Assembly: GCF_001629705.1 (NCBI RefSeq)
Contig: NZ_CP015378.1
Coordinates: 1,612,001-1,676,000, forward strand
Reading direction: 5' to 3'
Length of the DNA stretch: 64,000 bases
From: Fictibacillus phosphorivorans
GTDB lineage: Bacteria > Bacillota > Bacilli > Bacillales > Fictibacillaceae
Positions 7,787 to 29,249 of this stretch are shown here, one piece after another. Position 1 is the first letter of the stretch; every line of letters begins with the position of its first letter. The position numbers and the translations under genes are program-made. The notes below the pieces were generated by a model. It was not told the DNA's origin, made no database searches, and saw only the letters and a list, made by a program, of their open reading frames with translations.

Positions 7787-8455
7787 TTGAGAAAAATGAA
7801 CGGTGAAGAATTTGATGAACTTGTTTCCTTTTTTGACAGCATGGCAAGGACGACTTGGCTGAAAAAAGTTCATGATCGTTTAAAAGAAGTAACAGGGTCA
7901 TGGATTGAAAAAGACGTTCTAGATGTGGGATGCGGAACGGGAAGATTGCTGTTGCGTGGAGCTGAGGAAGCAAATAGGCTTGTCGGCGTGGATCTGTCTT
8001 CAGAGATGGTCAAGGCTAGCATTCAGCAGTTCTTTTATCATGAGTTAAGTGGCAAGAGTGAGTTTATTGTTGCGGATGCAGAAAATCTTCCTTTTGGGGA
8101 TCAGTCGTTTCATCTTGCTCTATCAACTTGTGTGATGTTTTTATTGCCTGGTCCAGCTAAAGGTATCAGCGAGGTTCATCGTGTTCTAAAAGATGATGGT
8201 CAAATCGTCATGTTGAACCCAAGCGGAAAAATGAGTCAAGAAAACGCTGTTTCTTACGCAAAGGAGCATGACATTTCAGGGTTCGAACGGACAGCACTTT
8301 TAAAATGGTCTAATGTGAGTACGAGAAGACATCGCTATTCAACAGATGAAATGACAGAATTACTCCACAACCTAAAATTTACTGAGGTTCAACATCATGA
8401 AGTGTTAGGTGGCTTAGCCATTATCAGTAAAGCAAAAAAAGCGCAGAACAGCTAA
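7787..8455 (+). CDS. Class I SAM-dependent methyltransferase, substrate unknown
   Basis: 222 residues from a TTG start with AAGGAG eight bases upstream. A Met codon three residues in is the alternative start but is badly spaced. Motif I is VLDVGCGTGRLLLRG, followed by GVDLSSEMV (motif II acidic residue) and the IVADAENLPF segment, which is the UbiE/COQ5-like (Methyltransf_11) pattern. The C-terminal part gives no substrate clue. It lies 22 bases after pyrE with no terminator between, and a hairpin terminator overlaps its stop codon, so it appears to be the last gene of the pyr operon. The molecule methylated cannot be named. Confidence 0.85.
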   Translation: MRKMNGEEFDELVSFFDSMARTTWLKKVHDRLKEVTGSWIEKDVLDVGCGTGRLLLRGAEEANRLVGVDLSSEMVKASIQQFFYHELSGKSEFIVADAENLPFGDQSFHLALSTCVMFLLPGPAKGISEVHRVLKDDGQIVMLNPSGKMSQENAVSYAKEHDISGFERTALLKWSNVSTRRHRYSTDEMTELLHNLKFTEVQHHEVLGGLAIISKAKKAQNS

Positions 8456-8479: not shown

Positions 8480-8594
8480 ATTTGGACTTCCGTAAGCATC
8501 CAAGCCCTTAGTATCTTTGAAATGGCCCTATACAGGTGCAACAGTAGGGAGAACGTATGATTTAACCGCCCTAAATGACCTTCAAAAATAAGAA

Positions 8595-8712
8595 TCTGTC
8601 CAATTGAGTGGGGAATCTGTCCAATTGCTTATATAATTTGTCCGATTGGGGCCACAATCTGTCCAATCTTAAATTTAATCTGTCCAATTCAGCAATTAAT
8701 CTGTCCAATCTC
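8595..8712. repeat. Intergenic array A: six units with exact 21-bp period, core aatctgtccaat
   Basis: The heptamer tctgtcc (third copy tttgtcc) begins at 8595, 8616, 8637, 8658, 8679 and 8700, six positions exactly 21 bases apart. About 12-13 bases (aatctgtccaat plus t or c) are conserved per unit, and the remaining 8-9 bases vary freely. The array fills the space between the ends of the convergent methyltransferase and rqcH genes. A degenerate copy (actgtctaatt) lies near 8736, out of phase. Bases 8480-8590 before the array show no gene or other feature. Confidence 0.9.
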
Positions 8713-8768
8713 GGATTCTTTAGCGTAAATCAACCACTGTCTAATTCTACAAAGCCTTACAAGATCGC

Positions 8769-10478
8769 TTACTTTTTTAACCGGAAAACAAGATCTTCAT
8801 CCGGTGTCACGAAAAGCGTCTGCTGATTATCATAAATAACAAATCCAGGCTTTGCCCCATTAGGCTTCTTCACATGTTTTACTAACGTAAAGTCAACTGG
8901 AACCGAACTCGAATTTTTTGCTTTACTGAAAAACCCTGCCAAAACAGCTGCTTCTTTAATAGCTGTTTCACTCGGACTCGACGAACGGATCAAAACATGA
9001 GAACCTGGAATGTCCTTCGTATGAAGCCATGTCTCATTTGCTCTTGATAACTTAAAGGTCAGATAGTCGTTCTGTTTATTGTTCTTACCGACTAAGATTT
9101 CTGTTCCGTCAGTAGATGTAAACTTTTCAGGCTGAGGCGTCTTGTTTTGTTTCTTTTTGTTCTTGCTTTGTCTATGTTTTAAATACCCGCCTTCACCGAG
9201 CTCTTCTCTAATTTCTTCAACATCTTTCATGGATGCTGAATCCATCTGAACGATCAGACGTTCAAAATAGAGCAGTTCATTCTTTGCTTTTTCGATCTGA
9301 TCTTTAATAATAGAAACCGATTTTTTTAGTTTCGCATATTTTTTAAAATAGCTTTGCGCATTATCAGCAGGTGATTTAAGTGGATCAAGTGTAATTTTCA
9401 CAAGTGGTTGATCTTCAGTGAAGTAATCTTCTACCTCAACTTCATGATCGCCCTTTTTAGCCAAATACATATAAGCGGTGAGAAGTTCACCCTTTCGTTG
9501 ATACTCCTCGGCATTATGAGTTTGTTCAAGTTCTTTTTCTAATTTTCCTATCTTTTTCTTAATCTTGTCATATTCGTTCGAAAGATATTTCTCAAGATCG
9601 TTTGCTTGTTGTTTGATTCGATCACGATCCGCTTTTCCATAAAAATACCGATCGAGCATATGACTGACTGTATCAAATGATCGGCTCTCACCCGTCACAT
9701 GATGCAGGGAAAGAACTGAGAAATACTCTTTCTTATCGTTTACAATCATTTGAGGTTCATATTCTTGAGCTGATAACTGCTTCATCACACTGAAAAAGAC
9801 GTCCGCCACTTCGTTCTTAACGGAAAGTCCTGCTCTGTGCACGATTTCTTTTGCGATTAGAGGAGAGAATCCGCTGAACCTGGATACGAGTTGCTTATCC
9901 AGTTTTCCTTCGTTCCAAGAAATCTTTGAAACAAATTCATCCGTATTTGTCACTGTAAAAGGATCTGTTTTTTCTTGTGCTGGAGGCATGATGTACTCAA
10001 ACCCTGGCAGAATGGTTCGGTGTCTATTTTGAAAACTAGGAATGTGCTTGATACTGTCAACGATTCTCTGCGATTTTTGGTCGACAAGAATAATGTTGCT
10101 GTGTCTTCCCATGATTTCTATATAAAGTACTTTTGTCGTTTCGTCCCCGATTTCATCTCTATTTTTAACCGTGATCGTTATGATTCTCTCAAGATCGAGC
10201 TGTTCGATTTTTTCAATAAATGCGCCTTCTAAATGTTTTCTAAGAAGCATACAGAACATAGGAGGAGTATCTGGATTCTCATACGTATGTTCAGTAAGAT
10301 GCACTCTTGCAAAAGAAGGATTTGCTGATAATAACAGTTTATGATTTTTTCCGTTTGCTCGGATTGTAAATACAAGATCTGTCTTATGTGGCTGATAAAC
10401 TTTGGAGATGCGTCCTGAAGTAAGTGTGTTTTGTAATTCAGTTGTTATGGCACGTGTCATTATTCCGTCAAAACTCAT
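8769..10478 (-). CDS. rqcH: Ribosome quality control factor RqcH (NFACT family; also called YloA/FbpA)
   Basis: 569 residues from the ATG at 10478, chosen because AGAGGTGA precedes it and MSFDGIMTRAI matches the family N-terminus; upstream in-frame codons lack a ribosome site. RqcH binds stalled 50S subunits and recruits tRNA-Ala to add C-terminal Ala tails to blocked chains. Order: NFACT-N domain (1 to about 180), helix-hairpin-helix, long coiled coil (about 270-430), Lys-rich linker, NFACT-R domain with GKNNKQNDYLTFK and WLHTKDIPGSHVLIR. The residue pair that is Asp97-Arg98 in B. subtilis reads Glu97-Arg98 here (IEQLDLERI). It converges on the pyr operon. Confidence 0.93.
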   Translation of the reverse strand: MSFDGIMTRAITTELQNTLTSGRISKVYQPHKTDLVFTIRANGKNHKLLLSANPSFARVHLTEHTYENPDTPPMFCMLLRKHLEGAFIEKIEQLDLERIITITVKNRDEIGDETTKVLYIEIMGRHSNIILVDQKSQRIVDSIKHIPSFQNRHRTILPGFEYIMPPAQEKTDPFTVTNTDEFVSKISWNEGKLDKQLVSRFSGFSPLIAKEIVHRAGLSVKNEVADVFFSVMKQLSAQEYEPQMIVNDKKEYFSVLSLHHVTGESRSFDTVSHMLDRYFYGKADRDRIKQQANDLEKYLSNEYDKIKKKIGKLEKELEQTHNAEEYQRKGELLTAYMYLAKKGDHEVEVEDYFTEDQPLVKITLDPLKSPADNAQSYFKKYAKLKKSVSIIKDQIEKAKNELLYFERLIVQMDSASMKDVEEIREELGEGGYLKHRQSKNKKKQNKTPQPEKFTSTDGTEILVGKNNKQNDYLTFKLSRANETWLHTKDIPGSHVLIRSSSPSETAIKEAAVLAGFFSKAKNSSSVPVDFTLVKHVKKPNGAKPGFVIYDNQQTLFVTPDEDLVFRLKK

Positions 10479-10575
10479 GTTATGGTCACCTCTTATTTCT
10501 GATTCATAGTATAGCATTTTTGCGGACATGCCTGCATATAAATGCTATTAACTAATCTTATCAGAGGTGGAAGCT

Positions 10576-13320: not shown

Positions 13321-13355
13321 GCTCGTCCAGCGGCTGTGAAGCACGCTGGACGAGC
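13321..13355. repeat. Perfect 12-bp inverted repeat at the head of the 20-bp array
   Basis: gctcgtccagcg (13321-13332) and cgctggacgagc (13344-13355) are perfectly complementary around an 11-base spacer. The right arm runs into the first array unit, whose initial cgagc it supplies. There is no T-run, so this is probably not a terminator. Confidence 0.85.
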
Positions 13356-13545
13356 GATTCTAGACTTTTATGAGCGATTCTAGACTTTTATGAGCGATTC
13401 TAGACTTTTATGAGCGATTCTAGACTTTTATGAGCGATTCTAGACTTTTATGAGCGATTCTAGACTTTTATGAGCGATTCTAGACTTTTATGAGCGATTC
13501 TAGACTTTTATGAGCGATTCTAGACTTTTATGAGCGATTCTAGAC
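13351..13545. repeat. Intergenic array B: nine tandem 20-bp units plus a partial tenth
   Basis: Nine copies of tgagcgattctagactttta in tandem, units 2-9 identical and unit 1 differing only in its first base. A tenth unit at 13531 diverges after tctagac. Each unit holds the palindrome tctaga. The near-perfect identity shows recent expansion or active homogenisation, unlike the degenerate 21-bp arrays. The period of 20 is not a multiple of three, so the array is not coding. It occupies the space where B. subtilis carries yicC (yloC). Confidence 0.97.
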
Positions 13546-28470: not shown

Positions 28471-28495
28471 GTTTTGTAGTGGTTCTATGTAAGTG

Positions 28496-28830
28496 GTTGA
28501 TTTCCGCTCCAGGTTGCTCGCTTTCTATGGGGCGAACGGTGAGCCTCCTGTCTAGTTGCAGTGACTAGCCCCTCGAGGTCAAAAGTTAAACGGTCAAGAA
28601 GGCAAAGTGCGCCGTCCTCGCCCATTTACCTTTTGCTTGTCGGGGCTGAACGAGCCACTTCCACTTTTCGGACTGCCGCTTTGCGCCATTAGGAGTCTCC
28701 ACCTGACCGCTTCAAGGTTGTCTCTCTGCTCCTGCGTCTACAAGTTTATGCTAACGAAGTGAATTCCTCGTCGCATGCCTTGCGAGAAGCACCTCATGTT
28801 GCAGGCGGGCAACCTTACGCTCCAATCAAC
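28496..28830. repeat. 335-bp composite repeat: foldback element ends enclosing other repeat-like sequence
   Basis: Read on the minus strand it opens gttgattggagcg and closes gagcggaaatcaac, the same ends as the foldback repeats at 47878 and 51445 (in reverse orientation). The outer arms include ctcgctttc and ggtgagcctcct. About 200 extra bases lie inside, among them cttgtcggggctgaacgagc followed by cttccacttttcg, which resemble another repeat common in Bacillus relatives. No coding frame is credible. Confidence 0.75.
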
Positions 28831-28921: not shown

Positions 28922-29005
28922 TACTGTCCAGTTTAAAGAAAATACTGTCCGCTTTCAGCTTTTTACTGTCGACTTTTTTAAAAATACTGTCCACTCCAAT
29001 CTATT
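28922..29005. repeat. Intergenic array C: four units with exact 21-bp period, core tactgtcc
   Basis: tactgtc(c) begins at 28922, 28943, 28964 and 28985, each 21 bases apart (the third reads tactgtcg). The bases between are T/A-rich and variable. It lies downstream of the composite repeat and before the 3' end of rpmB, that is, in a convergent gap. The core shares ctgtcc with array A at 8595, though the arrays are 20 kb apart. Confidence 0.88.
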
Positions 29006-29060: not shown

Positions 29061-29249
29061 TTATACACGTTCAACTTTGCCAGATTTAAGGGCACGAGCA
29101 GATACGTATACGCGTTTAGGCTTTCCGTCCACAAGAATACGAACCTTTTGGACGTTAGCTCCCCAGCTTTTCTTTGATTTGTTCATTGCGTGAGAACGCT
29201 TGTTACCAGTTTTAGGTCCTTTTCCAGTAATAAAACATTTACGAGCCAT
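29061..29249 (-). CDS. rpmB: 50S ribosomal protein L28
   Basis: 62 residues, full length for Bacilli. The sequence [20 protein letters not shown] and the end [16 protein letters not shown] are the L28 signature. L28 sits on the large subunit near the exit-site region. Only the first Cys of the zinc-type pairs is seen, so it looks like the zinc-independent or reduced form. AGGAGG stands upstream and a strong promoter lies at 29316-29344. It is on the opposite strand to its neighbours, as in B. subtilis. Confidence 0.97.

Follow-up and report, generated by a model that had tools for sequence, protein, structure and literature searches.

The window (the whole 64-kb stretch of DNA that was analysed) contains a run of six short cores, array A, which is probably the cognate binding array of proteins that combine a NERD domain, a zinc ribbon and a winged helix, gene and repeats forming one phased system. 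For arrays of this type in general, it is very likely that they are cognate binding arrays, binding being deduced from sequence comparison. Computation showed that genes and arrays adjoin each other, that cores are specific to paralogs, that cores are conserved over filler, that arrays are dispersed and that one core class is polar with respect to replication. The features of the window that are used below are as follows.

7787-8455, plus strand: left neighbour ORF of array A, which we take to be methyltransferase-like
8496..8591, plus strand: what remains of the 3′ end of a NERD-zinc-ribbon-winged-helix gene, namely its last 31 codons and the TAA stop
8593..8718, plus strand: array A, six class 1 units (AATCTGTCC and 12 bp), period 21
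8769-10529, minus strand: right neighbour ORF of array A, presumably RqcH/NFACT-like
13352..13545, minus strand: array B, a 20-bp tandem array that reads GAATCGCTCATAAA on the minus strand
28922..29004, plus strand: array of four class 2 units (TACTGTCC) with period 21, of which the third reads TACTGTCGAC

The cores of array A stand at 8595, 8616, 8637, 8658, 8679 and 8700, exactly 21 bp apart throughout, as had been described in an earlier note on this DNA. That note also had one core recurring at these places; a core is indeed present at all six, but the third is AATTTGTCCGAT and differs from the other five (TTTGTCC at 8637 and TCTGTCC at 8595, 8616, 8658, 8679 and 8700). Single AATYTGTCCRAT cores were not enriched in the 64-kb window (26 with up to 2 mismatches vs 29.3 expected), so it is the arrangement of the cores that is distinctive. 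A blind scan of the window for four-unit periodicity (lags 12-35, score at least 28) gave three places only, at 8593 with lag 21, at 13352 with lag 20 and at 28922 with lag 21. The array at 28922, the membership of array B and the partner gene all lie outside the earlier note. No Rfam match at gathering scores was found at 7 array loci. An RNA or single-stranded DNA hairpin was also considered for array A and was dropped for want of support (z +1.44 for RNA of the plus strand, z −0.30 for DNA of the minus strand).

Array A begins 2 bases past the stop codon TAA of the gene remnant. The remnant is 90% identical to a remnant in the genome G003 and 77% identical to the final stretch of a G002 frame of 337 aa, and intact relatives of the gene encode 332-348 aa. 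Positions 8495-8713 of the window have 84% DNA identity with the full locus of the own genome at 4099547, and both gene end and array are shared, which means that the gene end beside array A is a displaced one. The full copy in the own genome (4098660-4099631) has one in-frame TGA, and a class 1 array starts right past its stop. Judged from these alignments, array A came to its present gap along with the last 31 codons of a NERD-zinc-ribbon-winged-helix gene. We compared this gap among relatives except G017. G014, G004 and G003 have a copy of the gene end and array at this place, and 13 others lack it. Relatives that lack array A hold other sequence in the gap, and no clear target duplication was found at this one locus.

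Genes of this family lie beside arrays at many other loci. All 8 family genes of the own genome adjoin a 20/21-bp array, and the eight cores are different. In the pooled loci (L078-L204), 130 ORFs matched the profile and 108 non-redundant Bacillales genes were kept after removal of profile matches that ended early and of ORFs whose last 120 residues repeated those of another. In 30 genes the strongest flank lag between 15 and 28 was 20, and in another 68 it was 21, together 98 of 108. In this sample, which leans to the profile's close relatives because it was drawn from the best-scoring matches and which holds some ortholog sets, 90 of the 108 genes had an array by threshold and 18 did not, as compared with 7 of 93 other ORFs (4/46 in the window and 3/47 elsewhere; Fisher p 1.6e-29). 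Most adjacent arrays had 4-6 units (64 of 90), and the longest had 20.

The partner protein matched the Pfam NERD family (PF08378) with an E-value of 7.4e-23. For two array-adjacent partner proteins the NERD scores were 81.6 and 81.2 bits, above the curated cut-off of 22.1, and NERD was their sole Pfam match above cut-off; neither gave an HuH match in Pfam at E up to 1. The proteins end in a CxxC...WxCxxC zinc ribbon that is followed by a conserved stretch. The residues D, E and K are intact in 87/87 array-bearing genes and the four cysteines in 90/90. From its sequence, the N-terminal part appears to be a PD-(D/E)XK-like nuclease domain with presumed activity. The C-terminus is predicted to be winged-helix-like from the order of helices and strands in structure models (mean pLDDT 89 for the C-terminal 94 residues and 80 for the full protein). 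A Foldseek search with the C-terminal model gave weak winged-helix support (best E 0.21, mixed top matches), and the full-length model had weak matches only in the PDB, with Bax1 and other nucleases ranked first (best E 1.0e-3). A sequence search of solved structures with the partner returned two irrelevant weak matches.

Close relatives of the partner gene occur in Fictibacillus nanhaiensis, phosphorivorans and barbaricus. At E of at most 1e-15, relatives were found in 190 of 249 sampled genomes of Bacillales; the matches listed were nearly all near full length, and weaker ones may be NERD domain only. With one query (L105; E 1e-8 and 1e-6), no NERD relatives were found on plasmids or phages. 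Some partner genes (L104, L106, L107 and the own copy at 4098660-4099631) are broken by stops or frameshifts, with their arrays still in place.

Agreement between protein and core is observed mostly between close relatives. At a winged-helix identity of at least 0.8, all 14 pairs matched in at least 9 of 12 core positions; at 0.6 or above, 24 of 84 pairs did so (permutation maximum 7 in 2,000), and below 0.6 such a match was still seen in 62 of 3,921 pairs. With the NERD part held constant, the partial rank correlation between winged helix and core was 0.099 (4,005 pairs), a value reached in 0 of 500 permutations. The corresponding partial correlation between NERD part and core was 0.076. Where the winged helix was at least 0.6 identical but the NERD part less than 0.6, 1 of 32 pairs had a common core at 9/12. 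The genes L080 and L084 have flanking genes in common, and the N-terminal 243 columns of their proteins are 92% identical, yet their zinc ribbons are 48% and their winged helices 65% identical, and they carry a class 1 and a class 2 array, respectively. The core TTGGACAGTAAA, or one near it, is found with genes of other families whose proteins have SISxAxK-like helices, and it resembles class 2. It is from this pair, the few cross-family genes with SIS helices and the DNA-binding-like look of the domain that the C-terminus is proposed as the reader of the core.

The cores also change between orthologous places. At a locus found in six genomes and orthologous by both flanks, most units are CTCGTGGATT, CTCGCGGGATT or CTCGCCGTATT, depending on the genome (L091, which was aligned with this locus, is not orthologous to it). 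The upstream flanks of L138 and L147 are 92% identical and their cores differ (CTCGTGGATT vs CTCGCCGTATT), which indicates that cores can switch fast. Since the fillers differ between units, a joint change of the cores is not explained by unit copying alone; selection by a changing protein would account for it. In the mechanism that we propose, the C-terminal winged-helix-like domain would read one core per 20-21 bp (two helical turns), with one protomer on each core, so that protomers would align on one face of the DNA and load cooperatively. Each paralog has its own core, and protein and core change jointly.

Arrays with the cores of the window are numerous in the own genome (a single contig of 4.23 Mb). 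A genome search for CTGTCC spaced by 21 bp, which the earlier note had called for, gave 61 pairs against 0 for the reversed control, so further arrays exist; one of the 61, at 1114159, resembles a chance match. TGTCC three times at 21 bp gave 42 matches and the reversed pattern 1. A search of 41 genomes found three cores in phase in 11 of them, among which is the own genome (10/18 in the genus and 1 of another genus). The own genome has two core classes, AATCTGTCCRAT and TACTGTCCACTT, and in the genome stretches that were retrieved we counted 13 class 1 and 8 class 2 arrays with at least 3 units, none of the 21 within an ORF of at least 150 aa. Orthologous arrays in other Fictibacillus genomes have the same fillers in the same order, with the spacing kept, and so the result that would have told against selection on spacing (filler shared but spacing lost) was not seen. 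Over 7 copies, divergence was 30/1134 (0.026) in the cores vs 324/1512 (0.214) in the remainder. This difference, the number of arrays and the DNA-binding-like partner lend indirect support to the idea, already put forward in the earlier note, of a phased protein-binding site.

Several further observations were made on these arrays. Class 2 units (for example at L051, L052 and window 28922) tend to alternate between TTACTGTCC and ATACTGTCC, which amounts to a 42-bp super-period, and identity between class 2 fillers is lower for adjacent (0.296) than for non-adjacent units (0.386). Class 1 and class 2 arrays lie on opposite strands within four gaps (L043, L044, L051 and L055, at 531 kb, 765 kb, 3717 kb and 4128 kb of the genome), with the first full cores 78-140 bp apart. 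A second dispersed repeat, of the type GTTGATTTCCGCTCCAGG ... GAGACTCCTGCGGGA, is at window 28490-28830 and also in the gap between PyrE-methyltransferase and RqcH genes of many relatives (gaps of L208-L219); it had no Rfam family at gathering score at four loci.

Dispersal was also seen with other cores. The core of array B, GAATCGCTCATAAA, is that of the array beside another NERD gene of the own genome (416357-417298, L144); it occurs as 103 pairs in the own genome and is found in 11 of 18 Fictibacillus genomes, with a control of 0. TACTGTCCA, a core earlier seen beside the partner genes of G048 and G085, occurs twice at 21 bp in 15 of 249 genomes (36 pairs in G048, 27 in G085, 19 in G000, which is the own genome, 37 in G009, 35 in G002 and 1-4 in ten others), as compared with 1 in total for the reversed control. 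In G048 and G085, several places among the matches listed are far from the gene. The array of the L139 gene has the core CCGTGAA, which was also seen in phase away from L139, at L048 near genome position 1122000. The fillers of dispersed arrays showed no more register than shuffled ones (class 1, 0.447 vs 0.444; class 2, 0.506 vs 0.488, sd 0.012), so that block copying is limited to isolated examples. In the last step of the proposed mechanism, the nuclease, or repair of its cuts, would copy arrays into new intergenic gaps or maintain them. That the nuclease helps arrays to spread is a suggestion from sequence to which we give slightly less than an even chance.

The orientation of some arrays follows replication. 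All 12 GAATCGCTC arrays of the own genome run with replication, 7 on the minus strand in the replichore of positive skew and 5 on the plus strand in the other; 4 of them are in convergent gaps and 8 in tandem gaps. The same rule is obeyed in G016 by 10 of 10 arrays among the matches listed, with 24 of the 124 GAATCGCTC matches, in forward orientation, outside those listed. In the own genome 8 of 9 class 2 arrays are oriented with replication (window 28922 is the exception), and in G002 the matches listed (16 of 35) include 6 arrays with clear skew, of which 5 are oriented in this way. A job for the host linked to replication or to the chromosome would be compatible with the other steps of the mechanism, and we put it forward tentatively, as less likely than not.

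These data raise the question of whether the arrays are landmarks of the chromosome without mobility, made by slippage and kept for the good of the host, and coated by the proteins, which would thereby influence replication, sister chromosomes or the shape of the nucleoid. The polarity of the GAATCGCTC and class 2 arrays, and genes and several arrays at orthologous places, would fit. By contrast, class 1 has no polarity (7/13). Moreover, genes mostly run with replication, so transcription confounds polarity, and in the own genome tandem gaps contain 8 of the 12 GAATCGCTC arrays. The presence of several fast-diverging systems in one genome and of broken gene copies also resembles selfish or conflict elements more. 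We consider this explanation unlikely, and it is the strongest of the rivals to a cognate gene-array system.

It is much less probable that the arrays are operators at which the protein would repress a regulon along with the gene that encodes it. Of the 90 adjacent arrays, 59 are upstream, at a median of 106 bp from the matched start, which speaks for operators, but 31 are downstream, at a median of 16 bp past the stop. No promoter would be expected in a convergent gap, the type preferred by class 1 and class 2 arrays: a script assigned 10 of 17 distinct array-bearing gaps as convergent, 5 as tandem and 2 as divergent, with a baseline of 1 convergent gap in 18 taken from the window alone and skewed by its gene orientation. 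The 28922 gap was scored as tandem since short ORFs were omitted; the nearest gene on its right (29061-29249, minus strand), which we assume to be RpmB-like, faces the array. The notion of a boundary element between converging operons, offered in the earlier note, thus comes down to a preference at most.

The earlier note's alternative, a relic of slippage duplication, corresponds to an old minisatellite in which the core was kept for a reason unrelated to NERD genes. Slippage can make such arrays, and to this extent the alternative is partly correct. The array B class has near-identical, young-looking 20-bp units, which in array B itself match 100%, and the G003 ortholog of the window locus has lost exactly one 21-bp unit. 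Whole units are not alike in the class of array A, where filler identity over nine columns is 0.375 between adjacent and 0.381 between non-adjacent units, and slippage leaves the survival of the core alone in old arrays unexplained. It also does not account for the adjacency of one gene family to the arrays (90/108 vs 7/93) or for related proteins matching in core. We therefore regard this origin as improbable, a little more so than operators.

Transposon ends with 21-bp transposase sites are more doubtful still. Ends of Tn7-like elements have multiple TnsB sites of about 22 bp, and the PD-(D/E)XK nuclease TnsA takes part; several protein sites about two turns apart and such a nuclease are likenesses to our system, and the opposed placement of class 1 and class 2 arrays in four gaps would fit transposon ends. 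The idea of a transposon or MITE bounded by the two array classes was dropped, as the partner is NERD, with no DDE transposase gene, and arrays of other paralogs have other cores. Many dispersed arrays have no element between them, no ORF beside the L054 array looked transposase-like when read by eye, and the gap comparison gave no clear target duplication at its one locus. Coding heptads (21 bp as 7 codons), suggested by a 72-aa ORF that spans array A, can be set aside, because the core is fixed at the DNA level across copies, one unit of the L053 array reads a stop in the opposite-strand heptad frame and a 20-bp lag in 26 of 90 adjacent arrays breaks the frame, which excludes heptads for those arrays.

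We return to a cognate gene-array system and to its likeness to known ones. The small proteins Xis and BldC, which occupy direct repeats next to one another, are among the weak Foldseek matches of the C-terminal model and have no nuclease domain, and at E of 0.37 and above homology is not claimed. The defence proteins MAD6 and PglW include a NERD part (PF08378), the domain that they have in common with the partner. The partner matched them weakly and in part (MAD6, 1.5e-8 and 33.6 bits vs a cut-off of 460; PglW, 6.8e-4). It differs from both in that it has no kinase part, has a zinc ribbon and a winged-helix-like end, and is paired with DNA arrays.

The closest parallel may be REP/RAYT, where, according to one account, enzyme and repeat co-evolve (PMC8266576); REP/REPIN sequences with TnpA-REP/RAYT are termed 'REPtrons' (PMC8266576, PMC8049555). 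In both systems an enzyme gene stands beside its cognate repeats, non-autonomous copies are dispersed between genes, and enzyme and repeats co-evolve. Here the gene adjoins its own repeats in 90 of 108 cases, and dispersed copies are found for classes 1 and 2 (21 arrays), for GAATCGCTC (12 arrays) and in G048 and G085. By contrast, RAYT is an HuH (Y1) enzyme and REP sequences are palindromic hairpins, whereas here the protein is NERD/PD-(D/E)XK-like and carries a zinc ribbon and a winged helix, the arrays are direct repeats phased to the helix at 20/21 bp, and one genome has several different systems (8 in the own genome). With these two defining features, HuH enzyme and hairpin, absent when looked for, NERD arrays would be an unrelated system that works in a similar manner.

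We found no description, name or function of this gene-array pairing in the open-access literature, where absence is weak evidence. On balance, we lean towards an undescribed, widespread class of Bacillales gene-array systems, often several per genome, with a private phased code for each nuclease and some of them oriented with replication. In this reading protein and sites change their code together, as with PRDM9 or REP/RAYT, which would make the arrays either replicators within the genome or polar chromosome landmarks that a nuclease reads. If this is correct, these loci would provide ready protein-site pairs from which to read the recognition code, and many 20/21-bp repeats in Bacillales genomes would be explained. 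Next to REP/RAYT there would then be a second type of repeat system resident in genomes, and possibly also a nuclease-linked, replication-oriented landmark.
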